Shown here in pieces: positions 5,821 through 39,690 of a DNA stretch of 64,000 bases. Each line of letters begins with the position of its first letter. Position 1 is the stretch's first letter. Source of the DNA: Candidatus Thorarchaeota archaeon (GTDB lineage: Archaea; Asgardarchaeota; Thorarchaeia; Thorarchaeales; Thorarchaeaceae); contig JAIZWL010000001.1 in NCBI GenBank assembly GCA_021498125.1, positions 509,434 through 573,433 of the forward strand, read 5' to 3'. Made by a program: the position numbers and the translations under genes. The notes under the pieces are model-generated. The model was not told the DNA's origin, made no database searches, and was given only the letters and a program-made list of their open reading frames with translations.

Positions 5821-7461
5821 ATGGTGGCCAAGACTGATAGACTGGTGTACGTGAAGTATGTGCTGAAGAACGGGGAAACGCGGCGTATAGGTCTTGATCC
5901 GGACCGGGAGATCGAGCCGATTGGGGGGATTCCTCCAGCAGGGGCCAGGATCTCACTTTGGAGAGAGGGAATGGTGGCCATCGACCTGAGTCCGGTGGAG
6001 GCCCTTCCGAATCTCACGCACGTCTACATTGCAGAAAACAAGCTGGAACAGATCGACCTGACCCCACTGGCGCAGTGTCCGAACCTCTACGAGTTCTCTC
6101 TCGAGGGGAACAAACTGACAGAGGTGGACCTGACCCCACTGGCCTCGTGCAAGGCCCTGAAGCTACTCGACCTGTCCGATAACAAGTTACGGCACTTGGA
6201 CCTGACGCCACTGGCGCAATGTACGGCCCTAAAGATGCTCAACCTGTCCGTCAACCAGTTCAAGGAGTTAGACCTGACCCCACTGGCACAGTGCCGGAGT
6301 CTGAAGGAACTCAAGATTGCAGGGACCACATTAAAGCACTTGGACCTGACCCCACTGGCACAGTGCCAGAACCTTGAGTATCTCGACCTGTCCGTCAACC
6401 AGTTCAAGGAGTTAGACCTGACGCCACTGGCACAATGTCCCAACCTGCATCGAGTGCGACTTATAGACAATCCCCTTGAGGAGATCGACCTGAGTCCACT
6501 GGGTGCCAGTACCAGCCTCCAGGTCATTAATCTAGGGATGTGTAAGCTACGACATGTCGATCTCGCCCCACTGGCCACATGTCCGACCCTCGAGAGTGTT
6601 ATCCTGTATGAGAACCAACTGGAGGCCCTCGACCTGAGTGCCCTCCCCGAGTTCCCCCGGCTCGACTCCTTGCCCTTGGGATTCAATCCCTTTAAAGAGC
6701 TGGACCTCTCGCCCTTGGCCCGTTGCCCTCACCTCTCCTACGTAAACCTCAAGGACACAGGACTGAAGAGCATCGACCTGAGCATCTTTGCGGACAAGCA
6801 AGACCTCTCATGGCTTCTCCTAGACTCCAACGAGTTGACGGAGATCGACCTCACGCCACTGGCCTCGTGCAAGGCCTTGGAGAAACTTTCCCTGTCAAAG
6901 AATGAGTTGACGGAGATCGACCTCACGCCGCTGGCGCAGTGTCCGACCCTGAAAGAACTTGACCTATCAAAGAACGAGGTGACGGAGGTGGACCTGAGTC
7001 CGCTCGCCTCGTGTACTAATTTAGCACAGCTGAGTCTGTTCGCCAATCCGCTTACCCACATCAATCTGAGTCCACTGGCGAACTGTCCCCATCTCATGCA
7101 TCTGGCCATTGGGGGAACGCCCTTGGAACACATTGACCTGACCCCATTAGCCCAGTGCCACGAGTTAAAGGGCCTCTATCTCATCGGGAACAAGCTGAGG
7201 AGCATCGACCTCTCACCGTTGGCTATGTGTCCAAATTTGGGGAACCTCCAGCTCTATGCTAACAAGTTTGAAGAGGTGGACATTACCCCACTCTTTCAGT
7301 GCAAGCACCTTGAGAGAATTCGCATTGACGAATACGTGCGAGTGGTAGCGGATGCCCGGTATCGAAAGGGGGGCTGGCCGCCGTTTCTTAGAGGATTCCG
7401 AGGGACGAAGCTTCGTGCCCACCTCGAGTGGCGCACTATGCAGGCGTCACCCCAGTCATAG
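5821..7461 (+). CDS. Leucine-rich repeat protein with 19 repeats of about 23 residues
   Basis: The protein has 546 residues. A strand-rich N-terminus of about 45 residues is followed by 19 copies of a regular LRR whose core reads L-x-x-L-D-L-T/S-P-L-A-x-C. The period is close to 23, and the cysteine and proline positions are strongly conserved. A short conserved C-terminal cap contains GGWPPFLRGFRG. There is no signal peptide or membrane segment, so a cytoplasmic binding scaffold is likely, with unknown partner. The start is ATG 5821. Its paralogue at 8410-9969 has one repeat fewer. Several internal repeats are almost identical at the DNA level, which favours slippage and gene conversion. Confidence 0.9.
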   Translation: MVAKTDRLVYVKYVLKNGETRRIGLDPDREIEPIGGIPPAGARISLWREGMVAIDLSPVEALPNLTHVYIAENKLEQIDLTPLAQCPNLYEFSLEGNKLTEVDLTPLASCKALKLLDLSDNKLRHLDLTPLAQCTALKMLNLSVNQFKELDLTPLAQCRSLKELKIAGTTLKHLDLTPLAQCQNLEYLDLSVNQFKELDLTPLAQCPNLHRVRLIDNPLEEIDLSPLGASTSLQVINLGMCKLRHVDLAPLATCPTLESVILYENQLEALDLSALPEFPRLDSLPLGFNPFKELDLSPLARCPHLSYVNLKDTGLKSIDLSIFADKQDLSWLLLDSNELTEIDLTPLASCKALEKLSLSKNELTEIDLTPLAQCPTLKELDLSKNEVTEVDLSPLASCTNLAQLSLFANPLTHINLSPLANCPHLMHLAIGGTPLEHIDLTPLAQCHELKGLYLIGNKLRSIDLSPLAMCPNLGNLQLYANKFEEVDITPLFQCKHLERIRIDEYVRVVADARYRKGGWPPFLRGFRGTKLRAHLEWRTMQASPQS

Positions 7462-8409: not shown

Positions 8410-9969
8410 ATGGATGAAGAAGTTGTATACGTGCCGTATGTGACGACGAAGGGCGAGAACAGACAGTTAGAGGTCAGGGTGCGCAGCGAGATCGGAATGA
8501 TCGGTGGTTATGGGCCTGTGGGGAGTGAGTTGCGACTGGACGAAGAGAAAGCGGTGTCCGTGGACCTGAGTCCGCTCGTGGCGGTAGAGAACCTGACCCA
8601 CGCTTTTCTGAATGGGAACCACCTGAAGGAGGTGGACCTGGCCCCCCTTGCCCACTGTAAGCATCTGATGAGGCTCGACCTGTCCGAGAACAAGTTAACG
8701 GAGGTAGACCTGACCCCACTGGCACAATGCAAGAGCCTGCAAAAGCTCGACCTGTCCGAGAACAAGTTCACACGCCTCGACCTGACCCCACTGGCACAGT
8801 GCCAGAGTCTGAAGGAACTCAAGATCGCAGTGACCAAGTTAAAGCACTTGGACCTGACCCCACTGGCCCACTGTCAGAGCCTTGAACGCCTCTACCTCTA
8901 CGCCAATCAGTTTACGGAGCTCGACCTGACCCCACTGGCACAGTGCCCAAACCTGCAGCGACTGGCACTTGGGGGCAATCCCTTTGAGGAGCTCGACCTG
9001 AGTCCCCTGGGTACCAGCACCAGCCTCAACGATCTTGACCTAGGCCTGTGCAAGCTGCGACACATCGACCTCGCGCCCTTGGCCACGTGTCCGAACCTTG
9101 AGACCATTGCCCTGTACGACAACCAACTGGAAGACCTCGACCTGAGTGCGTTGCCCGAGTTCCCAAAGATCTCGACCCTGCTCCTGATGTCAAATCCCTT
9201 TAAGGGGCTGGATCTCTCGCCCTTGGCCCATTGCCCTCACCTCTATCACGTGAACCTCTGGGGAACGGGCCTGAAGAGCATTGATCTGAGCATCTTTGCA
9301 GACAAGCCGGACTTCACGCTGCTCCACCTTGGCAACAACGAGTTGATGGAGATCGACTTGCGCCCCCTCGCCTCGTGCAAGGCCCTGAAGAGGATCGATC
9401 TGTCGGGAAACGAACTGAATACAATTGATCTCTCCCCGCTGGCGCAGTGTCCAAACCTGAAATACCTGAAATTATCGTCCAACGAATTGGACACCATAGA
9501 CCTGAGTCCGCTCGCGTCATGTTCGACTCTGACAGACCTCTACCTTCATTCAAATCCACTTTCCGACCTAGACCTGAGTCCATTGGCGAATTGTCCACAT
9601 CTTACATATCTTGCAATTGCAGAAACTCCCTTAAAACAAATAGATTTGAGCCCCCTATCACGGTGCCATGAACTTAAGGGACTATATCTTACAAGTAATC
9701 GGCTGGCAAGTATTGACCTCACACCATTGGTCATGTGTTCAAATTTGGAGAACATCCAGCTCTATAATAATGAACTTGAAGAGTTGGACATCACACCGCT
9801 TATGCAATGTAGGCACCTAGTAAAACTTCGTATTGATGAAGACACTCGGGTGGTGGCGGATGAACGGTATCGAAAGGGCGGTTGGCCGCCTTTTCTCAGA
9901 GGGTTTCGAGGAAAAAAGATCCGTGCCCAACTTGAATGGCGCAGCATACAGTCAGTGACCACGCCATAG
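8410..9969 (+). CDS. Leucine-rich repeat protein with 18 repeats (paralogue)
   Basis: This 519-residue paralogue of the protein at 5821-7461 has the same N-terminal strands (YVPYVTTKGE), 18 LRRs with the L-D-L-S/T-P-L-A-x-C core, and the same C-terminal cap GGWPPFLRGFRG. It carries no export signal. Codon use changes within the gene. Up to about 9530 it is GC-rich and nearly matches the first copy. From about 9540 to 9830 it uses AT-richer codons, although the protein stays equally similar. That points to gene conversion of the front part, or to a mosaic origin. The partner is unknown. Confidence 0.9.
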   Translation: MDEEVVYVPYVTTKGENRQLEVRVRSEIGMIGGYGPVGSELRLDEEKAVSVDLSPLVAVENLTHAFLNGNHLKEVDLAPLAHCKHLMRLDLSENKLTEVDLTPLAQCKSLQKLDLSENKFTRLDLTPLAQCQSLKELKIAVTKLKHLDLTPLAHCQSLERLYLYANQFTELDLTPLAQCPNLQRLALGGNPFEELDLSPLGTSTSLNDLDLGLCKLRHIDLAPLATCPNLETIALYDNQLEDLDLSALPEFPKISTLLLMSNPFKGLDLSPLAHCPHLYHVNLWGTGLKSIDLSIFADKPDFTLLHLGNNELMEIDLRPLASCKALKRIDLSGNELNTIDLSPLAQCPNLKYLKLSSNELDTIDLSPLASCSTLTDLYLHSNPLSDLDLSPLANCPHLTYLAIAETPLKQIDLSPLSRCHELKGLYLTSNRLASIDLTPLVMCSNLENIQLYNNELEELDITPLMQCRHLVKLRIDEDTRVVADERYRKGGWPPFLRGFRGKKIRAQLEWRSIQSVTTP

Positions 9970-19317: not shown

Positions 19318-22300
19318 ATGGAACGAGAACCCTCTTCTGACGAACTCCATCTGCCCTTTCCACACGGTGTAGAGATCGAGCTACAGATATTGAAGCGCGA
19401 TGGGTCATGGATTCGTGGTGAGGAAGTCCTTGAACTGTTTGAGAAGATCGTGTCAAGTGCAAAGGATAACTTGGAGCGAAGAATCCGGTCCTCGGATATT
19501 GCCTCTGTGCGGCGCAAATACAAATACTCTACTCGTACCGAGGAGGGCGAACGTGGTTCGCGGATTGTGGCAAGCTACGAAGACCCTTCAGGGGTGGCTC
19601 ATGAATACACTCTACTTGGTCATGACCCAAATGTCACTTCGCTCACATGGATACTAGAGGTTGCAACCCCGCCATGCACTACCGCTGAGGAACTCGCATG
19701 GTGGATTCAGACGCTCATTGCCATCTCATACGAGTCGATCCCAAAGGACTCGAAGACCATTCTTATTTCTACAGGTCTCAATCCGACGCAGGAATATCTC
19801 AAGAATCTCTCTTTTGGAGAGCATCATCATATCTTGGGACCAGATGTGGACGAGGCAACCAAACTTGGCGTCTACAACATGATCCGTAATTTTATTCCGC
19901 ATCTCATTGCTCTCTCAGTAAATTCCCCATTTGAGAACAAGATGCCTACAAGTGAGGTTTCTGTTGACGAACACGGCCGACTTCGAGCACCCCGATGTAA
20001 GAGGTCTATTCGCCTGTCGAAAAATACGACGCAGCTCGGGCCGACTAGCGAGTTTGAGTTCATACCCTATCTACGATCCGCAGATGAGGAATATTTTGCC
20101 AGACAGGTGAACCGATCTTACGCCCGAATGGTTGACCTCTATCCCTTTACGGATTACAAGACGATTGAATTACGGATATTTGATACACAGCTCTCGGTCC
20201 CGCGGAGAGTAGGCATTGCGCTTCTCTTACAGGCATTGGCCTTGAAGGCAAAAAAGATGGTCTCCAAGGGGGAGAACATCCCCGATATGGGAGCAAAGGC
20301 TCTGGCAGCCAATAGGGAGTCTGCGGTCTCTGCTGGTCTATGGGCACCGTTCAGACCAGGGGTCGGTTCCGAAAACCCGACCTTTACGCAGGCCTATAAT
20401 TATCGAGTCAGAGATGATGGGACCATAGACACCAAAAAGAAGAATCGCTTCATGAGCGACGCAGTTGTGTCCATGCTATACTTGATCCGCGAAGAGCTTG
20501 AAGATCTCGGGCTTATCGAGAATCCGTTCATGCAGGCTCTCTTTGTGTCCATATTTGGAAGCGAGTTCGTGAAGCCACGGACCACTGGGGCCGAATTCCA
20601 ATTGGAGGTATATGCAAAGTCCGACCTGAATATGGTCGTGTTGCTTCGTAATCTTGCTGAGATTACACGTTCGTGTTGTACGAATTGGTTATATGACCCG
20701 TTAGAGGGCACCCCGAACTTGCCTACTTGGTTATGTTGGTGGAAGGGATTAGAACCTGAGATCATCCCAAGTTCTGACTATACGATTGCTGGTGATGACG
20801 CCTCATTTACGATTCTGCTTCGCAATACTACAAGACAGGACATGATGAATCTCACTCTGACCTACACCATAGAGAGCTCTGATAGAGCGATCATTGAGCA
20901 TAATATCACCCCGATAACAAAAGTTGCAGCAGGCGAGGTACGTGAGGAACGCATCACATTCCAGACATCAAAAGGTGTGTCCGCGTATAATATTATAGTA
21001 CAGATTGGAATTGCGGGTAGAGAGATCAATCTCACAAGTACCTTGAATACGTACTGGACAAGAGCGACAATTCATTCAGAAGCAACGACGCAATTTGCAG
21101 ATGGGAAGACCCCTGTCCTGTTCACCAGTGAGATCGAGACCAACTACCCCTCACCTCAGAGTTTTACCTGTCAGATAGCTGTTATTGCCCCACGAAAGGA
21201 GGCGATCTTGGCCGAGACCTCTACTCAAGTTTCAATTGATCGCTCTGAACCATTGATCCTCTCTCACACCGACCTCACTCCGCTTGTCATTTCCGCTGAT
21301 GCCTCAGACCGTGTTGAACGATGTGTCTTACGACTTGTTCTCGTGGATCCAGAGGGGCGTGAACATACACGTACGGTCTCCAAACCGTTCTATGTGGGCT
21401 TTATGGCAAGACGCCCTGTCCTCCGATTGCGGACGGATGCCAAAAAATCGCATCATCCTGGGGATGTAATCCATGGAGAAGTGGCACTAGACATCAGGGG
21501 TGGCATGAAGATTCAGAATCCCCGACTGGTTGTATCTTTTAAGGGGGACACAGGTGATTCCACCAAAATTGGAGAATTCGATGAGCATGATCTCCTATCA
21601 CACTCTGTACGATTCAGGTGGCGCGTCCCCGCATTACTGTCAGTCGGGTCGAGAGGGCTAGTTGGACGAATCCATGTGGCATTGATTGAGGACGATGAAG
21701 TTAGAGCCGAGATCGAGTCCGAACCCTTTGAAGTATATGAGACCGGAGTCACTGTCGTCATTGGCTCGATGCGACTTCCAGAGAGCCTTGATATTGGCGC
21801 AAAACTCAAGGGTTGGTTGAGAATTCGTAGGAACACGGAAGAAGGTAAAGATGCGACTCTGCGATTGCGGATAGAGTATCCTGAGGGCGGAGCATACACT
21901 TTGCTGGTGCAACGGGTCAAACCCTTACGCAACATCACCGTTGAGATTGGTCCTCTGGAGATTCCCTTCCCCTCAGGCCGCGACGCTCCCACGAGTGGAC
22001 TGATCACGGCCGAGCTGATCTACGACGGCGCCGTTGTAGACTCCAAGACACACACAATTACCTTTGCAGAATCGAAGAGGAGGCTTCCGGTTGCAATTAG
22101 CATAACGGGTGTCCCCCCCTTCGTCATGCCTGATGATTTCATTGAGGGTGCGGTCGAAATAGCCAATGAATCTGAAGTTCCACTGCAAGCGAATGTCACA
22201 ATCCAATTCGAATCCGTAGTTGGGAACGAGGTGATTCTCTCAAGAGGTCTCTCATTGGAGAGGGGTCGATCACGATTACTCCCTGCACAATTTCGAATCC

Positions 22301-22755
22301 CTCTGACTAGCGAGATGAGTACCGCATTTCTCTCGGTCAGTATAGATTCTCCAACGGGCCGAATCGTAGAACGGAAGAAGATTAAGATCAAGGCAATTGC
22401 TCAACCGTTATTTTCAGTGATCGTGTCTATACGCGACGAGCTTGGGCGTGAGATTCCCGGACTTGTTCCTCGTGCGTCACGTCTTGAGATACTGGCTGAT
22501 GTGCAGAGCTACAGAGCAGGGATTGAGAATATCACCTTACACCTTCAGATCATGAAGAAGAAACAGATTATTGAAAAGTTTGAGATCCCCATCGATTTCT
22601 CAACTGCGCCTCATCAGGTTGTACGGGCTCAATGGACAACACCTGCTGTCGAGATGGTCACGGGCTTCTATCTGGAGACAGCACTCTCTCATAACGGGCG
22701 TCCTATCCCTCCAAGAGCCATAGAGAGCTCGCGACGACAGATTACCGTCTACTAA
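19318..22755 (+). CDS. Glutamate-cysteine-ligase-like enzyme fused to tandem beta-sandwich (arrestin-like) domains
   Basis: 1145 residues. Residues 1-345 carry the marks of the GCS2/YbdK carboxylate-amine ligase family, which uses ATP to join a carboxylate to an amine. These include GVEIEL (17-22), LEVATPP (113-119), SFGEHHHILGP (165-175), VNSPFENKMPT (201-211), TIELRIFDTQ (282-291) and ANRESAVSAGLW (331-342). From about 485 to the end the sequence is strand-rich and resembles several consecutive Ig- or arrestin-like sandwiches; one near 700 has HHPGDVIHGEVAL, reminiscent of arrestin N-domains. YbdK-type enzymes are normally about 370-400 residues. There is no signal peptide, so it is probably cytoplasmic. 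The substrate is unknown. Confidence 0.8.
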   Translation: MEREPSSDELHLPFPHGVEIELQILKRDGSWIRGEEVLELFEKIVSSAKDNLERRIRSSDIASVRRKYKYSTRTEEGERGSRIVASYEDPSGVAHEYTLLGHDPNVTSLTWILEVATPPCTTAEELAWWIQTLIAISYESIPKDSKTILISTGLNPTQEYLKNLSFGEHHHILGPDVDEATKLGVYNMIRNFIPHLIALSVNSPFENKMPTSEVSVDEHGRLRAPRCKRSIRLSKNTTQLGPTSEFEFIPYLRSADEEYFARQVNRSYARMVDLYPFTDYKTIELRIFDTQLSVPRRVGIALLLQALALKAKKMVSKGENIPDMGAKALAANRESAVSAGLWAPFRPGVGSENPTFTQAYNYRVRDDGTIDTKKKNRFMSDAVVSMLYLIREELEDLGLIENPFMQALFVSIFGSEFVKPRTTGAEFQLEVYAKSDLNMVVLLRNLAEITRSCCTNWLYDPLEGTPNLPTWLCWWKGLEPEIIPSSDYTIAGDDASFTILLRNTTRQDMMNLTLTYTIESSDRAIIEHNITPITKVAAGEVREERITFQTSKGVSAYNIIVQIGIAGREINLTSTLNTYWTRATIHSEATTQFADGKTPVLFTSEIETNYPSPQSFTCQIAVIAPRKEAILAETSTQVSIDRSEPLILSHTDLTPLVISADASDRVERCVLRLVLVDPEGREHTRTVSKPFYVGFMARRPVLRLRTDAKKSHHPGDVIHGEVALDIRGGMKIQNPRLVVSFKGDTGDSTKIGEFDEHDLLSHSVRFRWRVPALLSVGSRGLVGRIHVALIEDDEVRAEIESEPFEVYETGVTVVIGSMRLPESLDIGAKLKGWLRIRRNTEEGKDATLRLRIEYPEGGAYTLLVQRVKPLRNITVEIGPLEIPFPSGRDAPTSGLITAELIYDGAVVDSKTHTITFAESKRRLPVAISITGVPPFVMPDDFIEGAVEIANESEVPLQANVTIQFESVVGNEVILSRGLSLERGRSRLLPAQFRIPLTSEMSTAFLSVSIDSPTGRIVERKKIKIKAIAQPLFSVIVSIRDELGREIPGLVPRASRLEILADVQSYRAGIENITLHLQIMKKKQIIEKFEIPIDFSTAPHQVVRAQWTTPAVEMVTGFYLETALSHNGRPIPPRAIESSRRQITVY

Positions 22756-29141: not shown

Positions 29142-30413
29142 ATGAGTTTCAGACAGCCCAATTTAGTTGGAGAGAGACGGTCCGTGTCGGAAACAAGACG
29201 CCTACTACTGGAGTTCGAAACTGAGCTTCTCAGTAGTCTTGCGAAAAAAGACAAGAGAGTGAGAGAGGAGCTTATTCGTGCATTCTCAGATGCATCGGAG
29301 ATCGTTAGGGAACGCGCTCTTATCGCGTCAATCGATTTGAACGACCCGACTATAGTTGATGACATCGCTAAGGCACTATCGGATAATGAAGTCGATGTGA
29401 GAATTGCCGCAGCACAGGCTCTAGCATGGTATCACCAGCCTAGAACGGTTCCTGCTCTATTAGCAGGTCTTAAGGACTCTAATACATGGGTTCGTTCTCA
29501 TTGTGCTGTGGGGCTCTCCAAGCTCATGAATGGGCCAATCTGGGCCCGTCTTAAAGAGGATGTGATTAACAAGTTCATTGCATCATTTCCAGATATGACC
29601 AATGATGAGATTACATTGTTCATGACCGATTTGGGAATTCATCCTGATGCAATCCAGCAATATTTGCAATGGCGGAAGAAGGACTTTGATGTGGAGATTG
29701 ATTTCTCTGTTGTTGCAGAGATGGAGAGCGGTCCGATTATTCTGATGGGCGAGGGAGCAGAAGCAGAGACCGCAGTTCTCTCAACACATAGTGGGCTAGC
29801 ACTCTCACCAGAAGTTGAGACTATTCTTTCTGAATTACCACGTGATATGCGAGAAAAGCTTCCCCCTGAAGATTTGAAACGCCTGACCCCCGAGACCGCG
29901 CGCGAGCTGGTGGACTCGCTCATTGGCCCGACGCCATCAGAAAAACCGAAGAAAAAGGTCAAGGTACGAAAAGTCAAACGTGTGCGTAGAGTAAAGAAAG
30001 AACCATCTAAAGACGAACTGCTAGCCAAGTTGCCTCCTGAGGTGAAGGCTTCTGTCTCGGAGGATACACTTGCTATGTTGAGTGTTGAAGAACTTGAAGC
30101 ACTGCTGTCCACCTCCGTTGAGACTGAGGAGGAAGTTGTAGTCGAACCTGAAACGAAAAGGACCCGGCGTAAGGCGTCCTCTAAAGCGAAGAAGAAGGAA
30201 TCACGTAAGACTACAGCGACCACGGAAGTTGAGAAGATTCCCGAAGATGAGACGGAACGTAAGAAGATGCTTGAGCAAAAGTACGGTAAGGCAAAGGCCG
30301 AACTTCTGTCCATTCTTCCTCCCGATATGCTAGAGGGGATACCCCCAGAGCAGATCGATGAGATGGATATTGATACGCTTAAGGATCTCACACGTGCGTT
30401 AGAATCGCACTGA
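29142..30413 (+). CDS. HEAT-repeat protein with basic linkers and three helical C-terminal repeats
   Basis: 423 residues. Residues 20-150 are HEAT-type helical pairs (VRERALIAS..., VRIAAAQALAWY, VRSHCAVGLSKLM). From about 225 a helical motif of roughly 33 residues occurs three times, each with L-P-P/R and a spaced leucine pattern: ILSELPRDMREKLPPEDL (about 225), LLAKLPPEVKASVSEDTL (about 293), LLSILPPDMLEGIPPEQI (about 385). Between them are Lys/Arg-rich stretches such as KPKKKVKVRKVKRVRRVKK, suited to nucleic acid or acidic partners. No catalytic domain is present, so it is probably a scaffold. It converges with the vWA gene and may belong to the same functional cluster. Confidence 0.75.
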   Translation: MSFRQPNLVGERRSVSETRRLLLEFETELLSSLAKKDKRVREELIRAFSDASEIVRERALIASIDLNDPTIVDDIAKALSDNEVDVRIAAAQALAWYHQPRTVPALLAGLKDSNTWVRSHCAVGLSKLMNGPIWARLKEDVINKFIASFPDMTNDEITLFMTDLGIHPDAIQQYLQWRKKDFDVEIDFSVVAEMESGPIILMGEGAEAETAVLSTHSGLALSPEVETILSELPRDMREKLPPEDLKRLTPETARELVDSLIGPTPSEKPKKKVKVRKVKRVRRVKKEPSKDELLAKLPPEVKASVSEDTLAMLSVEELEALLSTSVETEEEVVVEPETKRTRRKASSKAKKKESRKTTATTEVEKIPEDETERKKMLEQKYGKAKAELLSILPPDMLEGIPPEQIDEMDIDTLKDLTRALESH

Positions 30414-30427
30414 TCCACTTGCCCTCT

Positions 30428-31720
30428 CTATGATTGTCGGCCTCGTACGATCACAGCAAACTCTCCGGCGAGACGACCATACCATTCGAGAAGATCACGC
30501 ATATTGTCCACATGGCGATAGGTGCCATTGCCATACTGAGCTATTGCCACCATCAGTTCCTCATCGATCTCTGCACGGTTGCCAAGACCGATGCAATAAA
30601 TGACAAGGCGATTCCTATCAGTGAAGCGTTCCTTGAGTATCTTAAGCGGTGGCGGGCCGGCTGTGGGAATTCCATCGGTCAACATGATGATCATTGTTGG
30701 CTTAGAATGATCCCCAAATGCCTCAAGCACTTGGCTCGCCCGTTCTAGAGCGGTACCCATGTCTGTCAGTGTTCCGCCCTCTTCTACTTTATCGACGACG
30801 TGAGTACTGATCATCTGGATGCCAAGTGCCTTGTCCGCGCCTGTACATTCAACGAAGGGACGGACCTCACCGGTTTCGGAATTGATGAAGGTCATCTCGT
30901 TAACCTCCTTCTCGAAAGTGATCACTGCTACTTTCTCACCATAGCCACGCCCGACTTTTTCAGCTAGATAGAGAAGGACTGCCATTGCAGCCGCTTCTGC
31001 CCTGCTGACATTTGACCCCTCTTTGAACCGGTTAAGGAAGGAATGCACCTCGGGATTATCGCCCGCGAGATCCTTGAGGCCTTCACGTGCATGTGCAATA
31101 TCACGGACAGGTACATCGCTGGTCTTCATAGAACCTGAGGTATCAATGAGAAGGATCGCATTAAACGGGGAGGGAATTCCTATCGTCTTGAATTGATAGC
31201 CAGTGCGTTCTCTTAGTGCCTCAAAAGCGACCTTTGCAAAACTCTTCTCCGAGAGGGGAGGTCGCGTGTTCATGATTTCGACCTTAACACCAAGTTCGGG
31301 CCAATTGAAGGACATTCCCGGATAGACCAAGCGACCATCAATCATCTTTTCAAGGGAGTCCACATTGGCCACTGCTCGCGCCACGAGATCGTCAGTATTT
31401 GCATCTTCACTGAGCGGGCGAAGACCAAATTCAACAAATTCGAGGGCAATCATTGGTTCGTCATACAATGAGACCTCTACAATATCACCCTCCATCAGCA
31501 GTGATGCATCCAAGACCAGCGAGTCAATCATGATCTGATTCTTTGTGACATCCTTGCTCTTGCGTATCTCTGCGGCGCCCCAAAAAGCGCTCTCCGGATG
31601 TTCGAAGAGAACAATCGAGCCAAGATCCGCATTGAGAGACTCGGCGGTCTTCGGGTGCAGATGGGCAAATCCTCTGAGGTCTCCGCCGTCTATAATTTCA
31701 AGAGTGATCTTCTTTGTGAT
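30428..31720 (-). CDS. vWA-domain protein with N-terminal beta-barrel (Cdc48-N-like) domain; non-canonical start
   Basis: About 430 residues. The vWA domain has an intact metal site: DTSGSM near residue 193, the threonine in GGTLTDMG, and LTDG. The first ATG in frame is 31531, but the frame is open to a TAA at 31739-31741, and the extra 63 codons encode a strand-rich sequence (RGFAHLHPKTAESLN, then ESAFWGAAE). These align with the middle of the 873-residue protein at 33406. A strong GGGAGG at 31729-31734 (complement) stands eight bases before an ATC codon, so initiation probably uses ATC (or GTC/CTG) there. The barrel resembles the double-psi fold of Cdc48 N-domains. It is second in an operon after the amidohydrolase. 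Confidence 0.8.
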   Translation of the reverse strand: MTKKITLEIIDGGDLRGFAHLHPKTAESLNADLGSIVLFEHPESAFWGAAEIRKSKDVTKNQIMIDSLVLDASLLMEGDIVEVSLYDEPMIALEFVEFGLRPLSEDANTDDLVARAVANVDSLEKMIDGRLVYPGMSFNWPELGVKVEIMNTRPPLSEKSFAKVAFEALRERTGYQFKTIGIPSPFNAILLIDTSGSMKTSDVPVRDIAHAREGLKDLAGDNPEVHSFLNRFKEGSNVSRAEAAAMAVLLYLAEKVGRGYGEKVAVITFEKEVNEMTFINSETGEVRPFVECTGADKALGIQMISTHVVDKVEEGGTLTDMGTALERASQVLEAFGDHSKPTMIIMLTDGIPTAGPPPLKILKERFTDRNRLVIYCIGLGNRAEIDEELMVAIAQYGNGTYRHVDNMRDLLEWYGRLAGEFAVIVRGRQS

Positions 31721-31787
31721 GACCAGTGCCTCCCTGTCTTACTATGTAGTTCATTCTCCGTAATGGGATATAAACAATCACATGGTA

Positions 31788-33281
31788 TTATGATGATAAC
31801 GCGTGCTCAAGCGCATTGCACAGTAATTCATCAGTCTCAAACATCTGGCTCTTTCGGTTCAGTTCTGTCATCAAATGCCGATTGGCGCCAAGATGATTTG
31901 ATTCCAGTGTCCTGATTCCCTCATTTCCCGAGAAGGGTATCACTGCACAGCTATAGAGGTTTCCCGGCTGCGGCTGTATCCAGACATGAATTTGATTTCC
32001 CTCCCGTGATTTGAGCGAGAAAATGCAGGAATCGGTTTCAATGCCATTACGCCCTCCCTGTGCCACAGTCTTGACAGATGGCCATGTTCCGACTGGTGGA
32101 ATCATGTAGTCGAGAGAGGTTAATGACCAATTCTCCTCACTGGCACGCTTGATGACCTTTTGAACTATACAGCACAAGAGTTTGCTCTGAGGATTGGAGG
32201 TTATGAAGTGCTTCATCTGTTGTGACTTGCCACCCTCCGCATGATAGGGTCGTCGCACAAGTGAGAGTGCGTTGCCTGCGAGTATTTTCTGAATGTCTGA
32301 GGTCGTTCCGGGAAAGTCACGAGATAGTAGAAAGAGTATGAATTCTGCAGCCTGAACTGAGAGAAACGAATAATCTGTACCGAAGAGAAGTTTGCTTGAC
32401 CACGATGTGGTCGGATCATGAATGAGATTCGGCGCCTTTTTGAACAGAAGTGGAATGTCTCTGTCATGGAGCGATGAGGTCTCACCAAACACTAGTGGGT
32501 CCGATATGGTCTGATATAGAGTTCCTGAGGCTGGGCTCATGCCGCAGTGGCCGACTATCACTCGTGGTGGTCTCTCACCATCATCACGGATATGTTCTAC
32601 AAGATCGGTGATGCGTTCAATGGTCTTCGCATTTCGTGCATCAAAGAGAACTGGAATGTCTAGACTTCCCGCGGTCGACACCACTTCGATCACTGGAGGA
32701 CTGTCCATTCGGTCAATAAAGAGCTGGGCAAGCGGGTGGAGTTTTAATCCTCTGAGACCTAACTGCAATATTGCTCGCCGGAGTTCTTTGACTGCAAGAT
32801 CCGAGGCCGCATTGACCGCATCCATTGGGTCAATCCGCGCGAAACCAATGACCCGTGCTGAGTGTGGGGCCTGAGTGGTCCAGCTTGCGATGCGATCATT
32901 TGAGATACGGAAGCTAGCATTCTTGGGGAATCCCGACTTGCAGTAATCATCCGTATATGGAAATGCGATTGTTCTGTCAACGAGCCACCCTATGCTATTG
33001 CGTTTCCATTGATCTCTGCTCTCGAAGACAAGCCTTGCAGCATCGGTTGGTACCACCTCAATTGGTTCGAAGAGAAGTTCATCACGCTCACGCATGGACT
33101 GAGCCATTTTTTGGAGTTCTACCCATAACATGGAATAGAACTCGTAAGCGGAAGACGGCATATTACGATGGGTCTTTTCCTTGCCCATATGGTGATGGCC
33201 ATCCACAATGTAGAACTGTAAGAGATCCCCCTTTTGCAATCCCTGTTCAGGAATATCTTCCGTGGCTCGGACAACTAACAT
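31788..33281 (-). CDS. Amidohydrolase-family metal-dependent hydrolase with extra C-terminal domain
   Basis: 497 residues. Residues 1-335 form an amidohydrolase-2-type TIM barrel: GHHHMG gives the HxH pair (H29, H31), RGLKLHP has H182, VGHCG has H245 and GTDYSF has D303, the full set for metal binding and catalysis. The remaining 160 residues form a domain I cannot name. Family members hydrolyse or decarboxylate small ring compounds; nothing here identifies the substrate. It is the first gene of a two-gene operon with the vWA protein. The divergent 873-residue protein begins with the same MLVV sequence and carries a degenerate copy of this whole protein. Confidence 0.85.
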   Translation of the reverse strand: MLVVRATEDIPEQGLQKGDLLQFYIVDGHHHMGKEKTHRNMPSSAYEFYSMLWVELQKMAQSMRERDELLFEPIEVVPTDAARLVFESRDQWKRNSIGWLVDRTIAFPYTDDYCKSGFPKNASFRISNDRIASWTTQAPHSARVIGFARIDPMDAVNAASDLAVKELRRAILQLGLRGLKLHPLAQLFIDRMDSPPVIEVVSTAGSLDIPVLFDARNAKTIERITDLVEHIRDDGERPPRVIVGHCGMSPASGTLYQTISDPLVFGETSSLHDRDIPLLFKKAPNLIHDPTTSWSSKLLFGTDYSFLSVQAAEFILFLLSRDFPGTTSDIQKILAGNALSLVRRPYHAEGGKSQQMKHFITSNPQSKLLCCIVQKVIKRASEENWSLTSLDYMIPPVGTWPSVKTVAQGGRNGIETDSCIFSLKSREGNQIHVWIQPQPGNLYSCAVIPFSGNEGIRTLESNHLGANRHLMTELNRKSQMFETDELLCNALEHALSS

Positions 33282-33405
33282 AGGACTATACCCTCACCTT
33301 AACAATGGTACTCCCATAATAAACAATTGTCTGATGCTGGCATAGACCAGCAGTAGGCATATATCTGTTTGAATATTTCTCCAAGTATAGTGGAGGATAA
33401 CACGG
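33282..33405. promoter_or_regulatory. Divergent promoter region between the amidohydrolase operon and its fused paralogue
   Basis: Only 124 bp separate two divergent starts. AT-rich sequence (CATATATCTGTTTGAATATT, near 33357-33376) could serve one or both directions. GGAGG at 33391-33395 is the ribosome site for ATG 33406. Joint control of both units is likely. Confidence 0.45.
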
Positions 33406-36027
33406 ATGTTGGTTGTTGAAGACACGGAGAGCAATGAGATTCTGCGCTTCGTCGTTGTGGATGCATCCGTACGACTTGGAGAGGTCAAGGTTGGCACGCA
33501 AGTAAAACGTTTTGATCCGGAGAGGGTCTTGTCCTTTTTTGGAACAGTGGAACAGCATCTGATGGATCTTGCAGGAAAGTATCCCGAGTCATACCGGTAT
33601 CTTCCAAGAAAGACCTATGAGTATCTGAAACCACCACCGGTCATAGGAGAAGTATATCGCAGTTCCTCAACGGAACCCCGATGGTTGGTTGACTTTTTCA
33701 TTACCAAGCCTCTGATCCAAGTGGGGCATGTTGTTCTGCCCAAGGTCCAACAGATCGCAAACACTCGGCTGACGAGGAAGTGGGCACTCGAATCATTCTA
33801 TGCGCCCCGGCTCTATTTCACTCAGGACCTGAGAGATGAAAAATCCGACATGAACGGGTGGCTTTGCGTACTACGGGCGAAGGATCTTCCAAGCGTATTT
33901 AGAGGGCCTAACAGAAATGATGTGTTAGAGCATATCAAGTATCAAGTGCCAATTATAATTGAGATGGAACAAAAGGATGATCTTGAGACCCTTCTTGATT
34001 GGCTGGTCTTTGTGAAGAAACTCAAGTTGACCTCGCCCCGCTTGATCTTTGTGGTCCGATCCTACAATGAGTGGGGTGATGATATTGCCAAGTTACTTGA
34101 GATCCCCCGAACAATGATAATGACCTCCGGAGCCACTGTTGTTCATCTCTCGACTCTTATCAAGACGTTGCGCGAAAAATTTGGGGATGAGTGGTCCCGG
34201 AAGCTTGTATTTGCAAGTTCATATCCTGAGACCCAGATCGGGGATAGCCTTGTTGAGATCTTGAGTTTTCTGTTGAGCCGAACCGTAAGCGCAACTCCGA
34301 CCGATCTACATAGAATTCTTGGTGGAAACCTATTAGGTCTGTTACCACCGTATCCCAAGTTTATCAAATTCATTCAGTCCAAACTAGTGATCACTGCTGA
34401 GGGTTCCCTTGGGCATAGTAGTGTTAAGGGGTTAGCACGATTTCTTGAGGTTCTGATGAAGCGAACCGACATAGAGGTCATCTCGGCGGATTATTTGGTC
34501 ACCACAAATGGAGAAGTTGACACCAATAGTATGGTGATCACTCTTCTCGATGGCCCGGAAGGCCCAGCCCGTTGCTTGGCGCTCTGGATGAAGCGTGATG
34601 GTACTCTGACCGTTTCGGGATGGCATTCTAAACTGGCGGATCCCTTACAGATACGGAACAGTGAGCTCTTTACAACGCTTATGCAGAATGCTGCAAGTTC
34701 TGGGGATATTGTCTTGGACTCACCCCGGCATTTCGACCAATTTGGTAACTTTCTCATTAAATGCCTCAAGCTCCGCGATGGAAAGGACATACTCTCCGCA
34801 CTGCACTACAGAGTCACGATTGGTGCAGCGGAAGATGGAACCGTTCAGCTCTCTCCACGAGACATGAAGACACTGGATGTCGGAGAGAAGGACTATGTGA
34901 TCGTGCTACATGCAGAGAGCCGTAGGTGGTGGGGTGCTGTAGTTGAGGAGCAGAAGGATAGTGCTGAGCATACGGTCAAGATCTCCGAGCAGGATGCTGT
35001 TCTCTTTGGTATCCATGAGAATGAGTCTGTGGACGTTGTGCGATATGACTCGTTCATTCAAGAGATCGATGAGGCCGTGTTCTCATATCAGACATTTTGC
35101 GAGAGTGTGACTGCCGAGGATAATCAATATCTGTATCTGCATGGTTCGGAGGCCCGTGACCAGCTTAAGAATAGGCTTCTTGGACTTGGCACTTCGGTGT
35201 TCATGGAGTTACCCGATGATCAGGTCTCTCTGACACTGGTTGAGTCCGATCCGCCTCTTATGGAGGGACAACTTGGTCAGATAAATGGGACAGAGGTCAA
35301 GTACGTTCCAAAGATGATGCTCCACGACATGAATCTGGTCATCTGTATATCCCTTGATGCAGGAATGGACACGACCGATGTGAGCATCAAGACTCTGTAC
35401 ACTATACGACGGCGCCTTGAACCACTGACGAAAATTGTTCCCGATGTTGAAGCGTTCCTCTCTACTATTGATACAAAGATCACTCGTTCCGAAGCGGCCG
35501 CATTGATCGGACTGCTGATCATAAACGAGATTCTTCTGAATAGAGGCGAGGGCAAACTGGGAGTGGTCACTGTGACGGACTTTGCCGAGAAGTTCTCGAT
35601 TCAGAAAGGGGACACTCCGCAGTACTATGCAGAATTCTCGGAGGATCTCTTATCGCCTCAGGTGGTCGAGGCGATTGTCTATTCGATTCTGGACTCGATG
35701 AGAGCATCATCGACAAGGACTGAGATGAGTGATGCATATCGAGCTGTCGCCGAGCTGTTGGAGGACTTTGGAGACGACCTTCCCACACTTGTTATCATGA
35801 TTGGCGACTCTGTCAGTGATCCCGATGAGGATTCCGATCCCTTCCTCACATCTATTGCATCGCATTCCAGATACAGATTAGAATTCCTTGCTCTTGGGAC
35901 CGAGTTCGATGAAGCCCTTGCAGAGCGACTGTTTAGACCGATAAAAGGCAAGGTCACACGGATCGAATCATTTAGAGCCTATGATATAGACTCGAAACTG
36001 CTAGATGCGATCCACGATCTGTGCTGA
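33406..36027 (+). CDS. Fusion of degenerate amidohydrolase, beta-barrel and vWA domains (873 aa)
   Basis: Residues 1-460 align along their length with the amidohydrolase on the other strand, for example KLVFASSYPE...LSFLLSR against KLLFGTDYSF...LFLLSR. Every catalytic position is changed: HxH becomes SVR in VVDASVRLG, GHCG becomes TSGA, and GTD becomes ASS. Residues 462-560 align with the barrel of the vWA protein (ESRRWWGAVVE), and about 640-870 with its vWA domain. There DTSGSM has become LDAGMD near residue 650, so the metal site is lost. The frame is uninterrupted and long, so this is a maintained, catalytically dead fusion. It may be a scaffold or inhibitor binding the two active proteins. 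Confidence 0.85.
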   Translation: MLVVEDTESNEILRFVVVDASVRLGEVKVGTQVKRFDPERVLSFFGTVEQHLMDLAGKYPESYRYLPRKTYEYLKPPPVIGEVYRSSSTEPRWLVDFFITKPLIQVGHVVLPKVQQIANTRLTRKWALESFYAPRLYFTQDLRDEKSDMNGWLCVLRAKDLPSVFRGPNRNDVLEHIKYQVPIIIEMEQKDDLETLLDWLVFVKKLKLTSPRLIFVVRSYNEWGDDIAKLLEIPRTMIMTSGATVVHLSTLIKTLREKFGDEWSRKLVFASSYPETQIGDSLVEILSFLLSRTVSATPTDLHRILGGNLLGLLPPYPKFIKFIQSKLVITAEGSLGHSSVKGLARFLEVLMKRTDIEVISADYLVTTNGEVDTNSMVITLLDGPEGPARCLALWMKRDGTLTVSGWHSKLADPLQIRNSELFTTLMQNAASSGDIVLDSPRHFDQFGNFLIKCLKLRDGKDILSALHYRVTIGAAEDGTVQLSPRDMKTLDVGEKDYVIVLHAESRRWWGAVVEEQKDSAEHTVKISEQDAVLFGIHENESVDVVRYDSFIQEIDEAVFSYQTFCESVTAEDNQYLYLHGSEARDQLKNRLLGLGTSVFMELPDDQVSLTLVESDPPLMEGQLGQINGTEVKYVPKMMLHDMNLVICISLDAGMDTTDVSIKTLYTIRRRLEPLTKIVPDVEAFLSTIDTKITRSEAAALIGLLIINEILLNRGEGKLGVVTVTDFAEKFSIQKGDTPQYYAEFSEDLLSPQVVEAIVYSILDSMRASSTRTEMSDAYRAVAELLEDFGDDLPTLVIMIGDSVSDPDEDSDPFLTSIASHSRYRLEFLALGTEFDEALAERLFRPIKGKVTRIESFRAYDIDSKLLDAIHDLC

Positions 36028-36310: not shown

Positions 36311-37456
36311 TCACTCTCTTTGATCAATGATTGCTTTCATACTCTCCTCCAGTCTGTCAAGTCGTTCCGCAATCTCTTCCAACCGTGTGACTAGACTGCG
36401 TATCTTCTGGGTTGTCTCTTTATCTGCTGGTGCTCCGATTGCCGAGGGTTTTGTACCCTTGGCTGCTTGTTCCTCCAGTCTGCTTATCCTCTTTTCAAAA
36501 TCGAGTAGACTCTTCTGTAGCCCTTTCACATCTGCCTGTTCTAGTTTCTCCTCTAATTTAGTGAGGACTGTCAGTATCTTGTTACTGTCATCAGCTGGCT
36601 GAGACGCTCTTGGCTCTTTGGAGGGCGGTGCTTGACTTTTGATATCAGTCCAGAGTGGACTTAGATACTTGTGCACAAGTTGAGACAGGGACGGTGGTCT
36701 CTGGACCGCAAAGCTGGCTAATGATCGTGGGGCATCCCATAGTGCGATCTGGGCAGTGTCGGTGCCTATTGCGACACAGGTCCCCAGTCCCTCTTGTATT
36801 TTCTTAAATAATTTTAACTGTGCGATCCAACGAGAGAATATGCGTGAAAATGGTACTAGTGATGAGAGATCCCCTTTGGCAAGAGGCACAGTGTCGTCTT
36901 CGGTCTGTCCCTCCGCCTTTGCTACTACAGTTCCTGTTTCGGAGGGTTTCTTTGGTATTTTGACTGCCACAGCACACTCTAGCCTGCCATCAATCGCGTC
37001 GGAACGCATCTGCTCTATATAATCCAGACTTGGCTCCTCCCCAGGAAGAGTGAACTCACGTTCACCGAAATGTTGTGACGCGAGGCGAACGATGTCCGCC
37101 AGTGTCTGAGTGCGAGACCACCATATAATATCAAGTGCGTTTTCAGGATCAGTGATGTCTACTAGCGCGACGAACTTTTCTGTTGCAATTCCTGGAGGAC
37201 CGAGGATTACTAGGAACCCTTTCCGCATTGCTATTGCATTAAGATCCACTGCTAATCGCGCAGCTCTGTCCCCGGGAATCAAGTAATGATTATGTAGCTC
37301 TTTGTCAGTCAGATTTGGTGAGACCATCTTGTGGGTGATACCCTGTTCGATCCATCCAGATTTGAGTTCGCCCGGAACAAATCGGGAGATGATGAATCCG
37401 GAAATAGCCCCACTATTGTGAAGTGCTGTGAGTTCCTTGACAAGAGCCTCTGTCAT
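36311..37456 (-). CDS. Unknown protein with C-terminal coiled coil
   Basis: About 381 residues. The first 120 residues have an alternating strand/helix pattern (SGAISGFIISRF, FLVILGPPG, KFVALVDITD) that could be a longin- or roadblock-like fold, but I cannot confirm it. A middle part of mixed structure follows, then Pro/Ser-rich linkers and two coiled coils after about residue 290. I prefer ATG 37456, with GGTGAGG upstream, over GTG 37468. It lies nine bases before the coiled-coil gene and 21 bases after the vWA gene. Confidence 0.7.
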   Translation of the reverse strand: MTEALVKELTALHNSGAISGFIISRFVPGELKSGWIEQGITHKMVSPNLTDKELHNHYLIPGDRAARLAVDLNAIAMRKGFLVILGPPGIATEKFVALVDITDPENALDIIWWSRTQTLADIVRLASQHFGEREFTLPGEEPSLDYIEQMRSDAIDGRLECAVAVKIPKKPSETGTVVAKAEGQTEDDTVPLAKGDLSSLVPFSRIFSRWIAQLKLFKKIQEGLGTCVAIGTDTAQIALWDAPRSLASFAVQRPPSLSQLVHKYLSPLWTDIKSQAPPSKEPRASQPADDSNKILTVLTKLEEKLEQADVKGLQKSLLDFEKRISRLEEQAAKGTKPSAIGAPADKETTQKIRSLVTRLEEIAERLDRLEESMKAIIDQRE

Positions 37457-37477
37457 TTCAAGCCTCACCTCGAATCA

Positions 37478-38617
37478 TTAGTACAGCCTAGTCTTGTACA
37501 CTTTACTGGTCAGAGATTGGGAACCATAAAAGACCTCTACACGAATGCTTGCCTTACCTGTCTCAAATGCCATAGGCACGAGTGTGAGTTCAATCTCCTG
37601 ATCAGACCGCGGACCGATGTCATGTGGCTCATTGATGATCTCAGATATTCCGTCCTCGGAGATCAAGGAGGCCACGACCCGAACACAGATCACCGACGGA
37701 CTGGGATTCCTGACGTGAATGTTATATTTAATGGGTTTGCCACCAATAATCGCATCTGGGATCTTGCCGAGTTGTACTTCAATACCCATTTGAGATGCTG
37801 AGAGTGGCCGGCCCCGTGGCCAGCGAGGAATACGTTCTAGTTCAAGAAGGCGTGACAAAGAAGTCCGTAGCTGTCTTACTTCAAGTCCCAGTTCAGAAGA
37901 GGCCTCTCCCAGATCAAAGACGCCATCATGAGTCGCATAGTATGACAGCACCTTGCGGTCCGCTTCTATGAGATCGCTCACGCCCTCAAGTATCTGTAGG
38001 ATCGCCTCTGGTAGCTTGTTTCGGTCTTCGAGCGGGAAATATTGTCCTCCTTCGACTGCCTCTGCGATCATCTTGAAGGAGCGCTCCACAATCTCATTGC
38101 ATCCTACAACGAAAACAAAGACTGTTGATCCAAATTGCTTTCTCAGTTCGAGGACCTCTTGTTTTGGGTCATACCCTGCAGGGCAGCCTTGTGGCCAGTA
38201 GTCATCGTCAAGATGGTTGTAGTCCGTTCCGTGTGGAGGCGCATCCCCAACAAGAAGCAGTACTTTGTAAGCGTCAGCCGACCATGAGAGTTTTGTTCGT
38301 GCGTCATGGAGACCGTCAGCAACAGCCTCGGGGGCATCTCCGCCCTCAGAGGGCCTGAGTGACGAGATGGCCTTGTGGACTTTCTTTATGTTGTCCGTAA
38401 AATCGAAGATCTTTGTCACGTATGTATAATCTTGTGGTGGGTGGTCCCGGTATGATACAACAGCGAATCTGATGCTGATGTCCGTCGTCCGTTTAGTTAT
38501 TCGCTTTACAATATCGAATAGACTATCCTTGACTGCACGGATATCGTCACGCATCGAGCCAGTTGTGTCAACGACGAAGGCCACGTCAATCTTTGAGATG
38601 GAACTCACTCCGCTCAC
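37478..38617 (-). CDS. vWA protein with winged-helix and Ig-like domains
   Basis: 379 residues. Residues 8-225 are a vWA domain with metal-site motif DTTGSMRDD, a conserved EGGDAPEAVADGL loop carrying the second site, and VGDAPPHG. Residues about 232-280 look like a winged helix (VLSYYATHDGVFDLGEASSE, then RQLRTSLSRLLE). Residues 285-379 are a single Ig-like beta sandwich. The combination suggests a metal-dependent adhesion module that recruits partners, perhaps near DNA. The start is GTG 38617, with GTG 38608 possible. It heads a three-gene operon convergent with the 873-residue fusion. Confidence 0.85.
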   Translation of the reverse strand: MSGVSSISKIDVAFVVDTTGSMRDDIRAVKDSLFDIVKRITKRTTDISIRFAVVSYRDHPPQDYTYVTKIFDFTDNIKKVHKAISSLRPSEGGDAPEAVADGLHDARTKLSWSADAYKVLLLVGDAPPHGTDYNHLDDDYWPQGCPAGYDPKQEVLELRKQFGSTVFVFVVGCNEIVERSFKMIAEAVEGGQYFPLEDRNKLPEAILQILEGVSDLIEADRKVLSYYATHDGVFDLGEASSELGLEVRQLRTSLSRLLELERIPRWPRGRPLSASQMGIEVQLGKIPDAIIGGKPIKYNIHVRNPSPSVICVRVVASLISEDGISEIINEPHDIGPRSDQEIELTLVPMAFETGKASIRVEVFYGSQSLTSKVYKTRLY

Positions 38618-39126: not shown

Positions 39127-39690
39127 CTATAGCCGTTGAAAGCTCTTTAGGAGTAGTTTGGTCTCATCCTTTTTTACCTCAGTGGGATCCGCGGTCATTC
39201 CCGGCTCATAGGTCTCAATTATTACCTCAAGCCCTGAGTCTGTCACACTCTTGATGCCCTTTGTAGAGAGTGCACGTATAGTTAGCATTGTTGTATTGAA
39301 TTCTGTCTTTGAGGCGGCTTCGATGAGTTGTGTCTCGGATCGGGTCTTTGTCTTTGCAATGCGTAATTGCTCTTTGAGTTCAGCTACCTGAACTTGGAGC
39401 TTGTTACGAGTATCGATCACATCATCAAGTGTCGCCTTCATAGACTCATATTCCTTCTTTGGAACAAAGTCCGCCATCTTGTCAATCCATGTCACTGTGG
39501 TGCCATCAAATCTACGAGTTGTCTTTATGAAACCCATTGCTTTTAGTACAGCAATGACATCATAGACTCTCCTCTTTGGGGTTTCAAGTCTTGTAGCTAT
39601 TTCATCACTACGGATTCCCTCTTCGCCACACTCTTTGAGCAATTCCACTGTATCTCTGGCGAGTTCGACGAGTTTCCGTTTAGACGTCAC
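39127..39690 (-). CDS. E2F/DP-like winged-helix transcription regulator
   Basis: 187 residues. Residues 8-70 form a winged helix whose recognition segment reads PKRRVYDVIAVLKAMGFI (38-55), matching the RRxYDxxNVLxAxxxI core that contacts DNA in eukaryotic E2F and DP proteins. It is closed by a TTVTWID strand like their IQWxG. Residues 76-115 are a coiled coil, and the last 70 residues are strand-rich. The order of winged helix, coiled coil and small beta domain is that of E2F/DP proteins. Other archaeal winged helices lack the RRVYD motif as far as I know. The start is GTG 39690 after GGGGTG. It is divergent from the cDPG synthetase-like gene. Confidence 0.75.
   Translation of the reverse strand: MTSKRKLVELARDTVELLKECGEEGIRSDEIATRLETPKRRVYDVIAVLKAMGFIKTTRRFDGTTVTWIDKMADFVPKKEYESMKATLDDVIDTRNKLQVQVAELKEQLRIAKTKTRSETQLIEAASKTEFNTTMLTIRALSTKGIKSVTDSGLEVIIETYEPGMTADPTEVKKDETKLLLKSFQRL

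Follow-up and report, generated by a model that had tools for sequence, protein, structure and literature searches.

A conserved, catalytically dead amidohydrolase-vWA fusion protein encoded beside its active counterparts and a putative ligase module in Thorarchaeota

Why would an archaeon keep, head-to-head with the genes for an amidohydrolase (AH) and a vWA protein, a further gene whose product resembles both proteins joined in one chain and has lost the active sites of both? The locus that raises this question lies in a window of 64,000 nucleotides, by which we mean the whole stretch of Thorarchaeal DNA that was analysed (Table 1). The initial annotation, made from the sequence alone, regarded the fusion as a duplicate of its neighbours that serves as a scaffold or antagonist of the active pair. 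The divergent arrangement that it described for AH and the fusion is correct, including the spacing between them, as is the end that it gave for the vWA gene; the start of the latter has moved from 31720 to either GTG at 31723 or TTG at 31726. Within the intergenic region, the fusion is preceded by a Shine-Dalgarno-like GGAGG and AH by GGTGAGG. The ligase gene lies some 8 kb from that of the vWA protein and encodes a probable third partner, which the initial annotation missed.

Table 1. Features of the locus, in window positions.
Feature	Position	Strand	Description
GCS2/YbdK-like carboxylate-amine ligase	19318..22755	+	1145 aa; long C-terminal region
HEAT-repeat protein	29142..30413	+	flanking gene; retained where the block is lost
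CDC48-N-like barrel + vWA protein	30428..31723	-	431 aa; MIDAS intact
Amidohydrolase (AH), Amidohydro_2	31788..33281	-	497 aa; every metal-ligand position present
Intergenic region between AH and fusion, divergent	33282..33405		124 bp
Fusion protein	33406..36027	+	873 aa; AH-like half ~1-403, CDC48N-vWA-like half ~461-855
Coiled-coil protein	36311..37468	-	matches no known family; belongs to the co-lost block
Second vWA protein (VWA_4)	37478..38617	-	co-lost with AH and vWA

When single sequences were compared by BLASTP, the fusion aligned with the vWA protein over 343 columns (E 2e-19) and with AH over 197 columns (E 4e-4), the homology of the N-terminal half being weak at this level. Profile-profile comparison of family alignments (20 fusions, 17 AHs and 15 vWA proteins) gave E-values of 7e-20 against AH (probability 99.2) and 6e-24 against vWA (probability 99.6). 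The matches were collinear and near full length, and the likeness, which had been claimed initially, is therefore not due to chance. The domains of the fusion run from AH to vWA, as do the two genes on the minus strand. The fusion by itself has no match in Pfam or NCBIfam: it hits neither the Amidohydro_2 profile (PF04909), its kinship with AH being drawn by profile comparison only, nor any vWA profile. The metal-ligand positions (HxH, GLKLHP, GHCG and GTD) are lost in all 20 Thorarchaeal fusions and present in all 27 active AHs, which represent seven Asgard families, and the MIDAS (DxSGS, T, D) is likewise gone from the Thorarchaeal fusions, in agreement with the loss of both active sites noted at the outset. 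Around the former strand 8 barrel ligand, the family alignment contains a new, near-invariant motif, YPETQxGD, which suggests a retooled pocket. The AlphaFold2 model of the fusion is confident throughout (pLDDT 88.2, pTM 0.70).

The active AH matches PF04909 with 36 bits (cut-off 26.4; E 8e-9), and shares with the members of Amidohydro_2, such as the gamma-resorcylate and 5-carboxyvanillate decarboxylases and ACMSD, both the profile match and the HxH, KxH (or H), H and D motifs, with D27, H29, H31, K180, H182, H245 and D303 invariant across families. By sequence, the nearest solved structures are 3nur, 3s4t and 4inf (E 0.003-0.03). Compared with these enzymes, AH has ~150 additional C-terminal residues and its own partner genes, and an orthologue of known substrate is absent; the fusion differs from Amidohydro_2 in lacking every ligand position. 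In one genome assembled as a single contig (G024; locus L118, 8926-11595), only 73-74 residues of AH still match, and a fragment of the vWA C-terminus is found 1.5 Mb from this truncated AH (G024:C1 2070710), a split arrangement that is either a real rearrangement or a misassembly.

The second member of the pair consists of a CDC48/p97-N-like domain followed by a vWA domain. The latter matches VWA_2 with 38 bits (cut-off 27), and its MIDAS (DTSGS, T and TDG) is conserved among homologues. The CDC48_N sequence profile matches 16 of 28 relatives (best E-value 1e-9); for the window protein the E-value is 0.054, under the cut-off. In Foldseek searches its N-terminal ~185 residues aligned with the isolated p97 N-domain over 184-192 columns, with a TM-score to the target of 0.67-0.75 and an rmsd of ~4 A. 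The N-domain is thus shared with CDC48, p97 and VAT by structure, and in relatives also by sequence, but the AAA ATPase domains that follow it in those proteins are replaced by the vWA domain. The vWA proteins of some other Asgard families carry 300-600 additional N-terminal residues (L136 7480-9645, L137 6420-9458 and L138 369-3335), and those of L136 and L137 have a CDC48_N match at the extreme N-terminus.

The fusion is encoded, in stop-free frames, by 33 of the 37 genomes of the window's family, where it mostly stands head-to-head with AH followed by vWA. The neighbourhood check in related genomes showed that this divergent linkage is conserved across Thorarchaeota. Relative to the window copies, identity is 75-81% for the vWA protein, 42-69% for AH and 29-76% for the fusion. 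Fusions also occur in two further Asgard families (f4 and f11), away from AH-vWA pairs. In the tree of each half, the fusions group as a single clade, which branches outside every active AH in one (SH-aLRT 99) and outside every active vWA in the other (support 87, moderate), with long-branch warnings attached to both trees. The fusion was therefore not copied from the genes that now adjoin it, and the duplication proposed initially gives way to one ancient origin; recent duplication of the neighbours is ruled out by both domain trees. On this phylogenetic evidence, the fusion arose once, before the split of the three Asgard families, and is an old paralogue that predates the pair's local family. 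An f11 fusion retains HxH (as VDVHMHLG) and some f4 and f11 fusions keep the D..S part of the MIDAS (LVIDVSEIM), so the sites were lost stepwise.

The fusion is also under strong purifying selection rather than decaying, since dN/dS in close pairs with usable dS (0.22-1.5) was 0.06-0.18 overall and 0.05-0.21 per half. The initial observation of an intact frame is extended by these ratios and by the lack of stops in the family copies, and a decaying pseudogene is ruled out by dN/dS. A broader form of that idea, in which the fusion is a fading relic of an old paralogue, finds some footing in its faster evolution (terminal branches of ~0.2-2.0 vs 0.02-0.17 for active Thorarchaeal vWA proteins, the vWA half of the G012 fusion having the longest branch in the vWA tree); set against the dN/dS values, the family-wide intact frames and the confident predicted fold, it is extremely improbable and near refuted.

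Probable partners of the pair emerge from gene content. The window ligase matches the GCS2 profile with 21.4 bits (cut-off 21.0) and a YbdK-family model at E 8e-14, under that model's own cut-off. It shares with the GCS2/YbdK carboxylate-amine ligases this domain and the conserved GxExE motif (GIEVELQ, with E19 and E21 invariant), and differs from them in its long C-terminal extension and its Asgard partner genes. Profile comparison of the ligase family with the AH and vWA families revealed no relation. In other Asgard families the ligase adjoins AH, and often vWA too (L123, L126, L128, L133, L137, L141, L179 and L182). The genes for AH, vWA and the second vWA protein are jointly absent from five genomes that are 95-99% complete (G002, G012, G013, G015 and G023), in which the flanking genes are continuous on single contigs and the HEAT gene is retained. 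The ligase is also absent from four of the five, and divergent in the fifth. The five genomes come from four genera, and in two of these other members carry the block, so at least three and probably four separate losses have occurred. The strongest sign that AH, vWA, the second vWA protein and the ligase cooperate is this joint loss. Taken together with adjacency in many families and with the fusion itself, it indicates that AH and the vWA protein very probably work together. The divergent ligase, found in G002, is a 708-aa GCS2-type protein encoded near the fusion gene (L103 14-2140).

The fusion follows the block less closely. It is retained in three of the five genomes (G002, G012 and G015; 95-98% complete), directly adjoining the HEAT-repeat gene where it alone remains, and absent from two, and it is thus linked to the module and not strictly dependent on it. 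Most Asgard families with AH, vWA and the ligase have no fusion, which is therefore not essential to the module. A literature search for this gene combination found nothing relevant. The locus exposes an undescribed Asgard module of GCS2 ligase, amidohydrolase and CDC48N-vWA protein, whose partners are testable.

Pseudoenzymes can be retained as regulators. The fusion is similarly a catalytically dead paralogue of its neighbours kept by selection; it departs from such regulators in joining two partners with both sites dead in one chain, and its clade goes back further than the pair's local family. We see about an even chance that it is an ancient pseudoenzyme, acting as a non-catalytic structural or regulatory subunit linked to the ligase-AH-vWA module. 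Its history would begin in an ancestral Asgard archaeon, where paralogues of the active AH and CDC48N-vWA genes were joined into a single frame; the metal site and MIDAS would then have decayed stepwise with the fold maintained by selection. The GCS2-type ligase would constitute one functional module with the two active proteins, AH and vWA. This module most likely makes and hydrolyses, or otherwise processes, an amide-type bond, and the CDC48N-vWA protein would be its putative metal-dependent binding subunit. The fusion would most likely bind whatever partners or ligands the active pair binds, and its persistence in three genomes that lack the pair means that it must also have at least one partner outside the pair. 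A physical complex, a regulatory role and its direction, as well as the chemistry of the module, are what we would infer from this arrangement. In G002, G012 and G015 the fusion may have part of its role elsewhere, or may be a slow relic there.

The same three genomes bear on how far the fusion is tied to the pair at all. It is possible, if somewhat doubtful, that the fusion has neofunctionalised independently into a binding protein whose role is its own, for example as a ligand sensor with a retooled barrel pocket, and merely adjoins the pair. Its persistence there after the loss of AH, vWA and the second vWA protein, in two cases of the ligase as well, would fit such independence, as would the conservation of YPETQxGD at the former metal site and the separate location of the f4 and f11 fusions; the head-to-head linkage across Thorarchaeota and the loss of the fusion together with the block in genus g11 speak against it. 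The persistence also weakens the pure scaffold or antagonist role proposed initially. A built-in antagonist, dampening the system through competition for the partners or substrate of the active vWA protein or AH, would be consistent with the shared domain order, the dead sites and the divergent gene arrangement, but the fusion survives where its presumed targets are gone, which makes this role less likely; with no other support, we consider it very unlikely. Under the preferred reading as a module-linked pseudoenzyme, the locus would document a rare event: two probable partners merged into one chain, each active site disappeared, and selection has maintained the inactive product throughout a deep radiation of archaea.

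Asgard archaea are relatives of our own ancestors, and the vWA protein has a structural likeness to a eukaryotic protein, DEPDC5/Iml1, the scaffold of the nutrient-sensing complex GATOR1. When the whole vWA model was searched with Foldseek, DEPDC5 of GATOR1 took the first seven places among the PDB matches (425-483 columns, spanning both domains), with the yeast SEA complex also listed, and DEPDC5 ranked first for the fusion model. The overall TM-score of the vWA model to DEPDC5 is ~0.3 with an rmsd of ~11 A, barely above that for the p97 N-domain alone. The match to the NTD-SABA part of DEPDC5/Iml1 (GATOR1, SEACIT) lies in local structure and domain order, whereas the vWA protein ends after its vWA domain (431 aa), without SHEN, DEP and CTD, and has an intact MIDAS. 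A review likens the DEPDC5 NTD to NSF and SABA to Sec23 (PMC8534245). The IML1 profile (PF12257) gave nothing above cut-off in 224 Asgard genomes, weak matches occurring in control genomes too, and PDB sequence searches with vWA profiles returned vWA and VAT-N domains and no DEPDC5 among the matches listed. Literature searches for Asgard with DEPDC5 or Iml1 found nothing relevant, and the sole match for Asgard with GATOR1 concerned a Myxococcus GAP complex. The likeness, which comes from predicted models, is thus a lead without sequence support. That the Asgard CDC48N-vWA protein is a prokaryotic forerunner of the DEPDC5/Iml1 NTD-SABA core, one that sits within a ligase-amidohydrolase system and has a dead fused duplicate, is on the whole unlikely; the protein would nevertheless be a concrete candidate, on structural grounds, for the source of part of GATOR1.

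Judging by their motifs, dead vWA paralogues recur in Thorarchaeota. Most Thorarchaeota examined encode a vWA-like protein of ~380 aa between the coiled-coil and second vWA genes (L107 13773-14915, L110 13268-14437, L119 3595-4746 and others). It forms its own clade, its MIDAS is dead in nine of nine Thorarchaeal genomes, and it is absent from the window. Conserved next to the block is a winged-helix protein (window 39127-39690, minus strand) that matches the E2F/DP DNA-binding domain (E 7e-11). The window also encodes two neighbouring leucine-rich-repeat proteins of ~520-550 aa on the plus strand (5821-7461 and 8410-9969), with Pfam LRR_8 matches at E 1e-41 and 2e-43.
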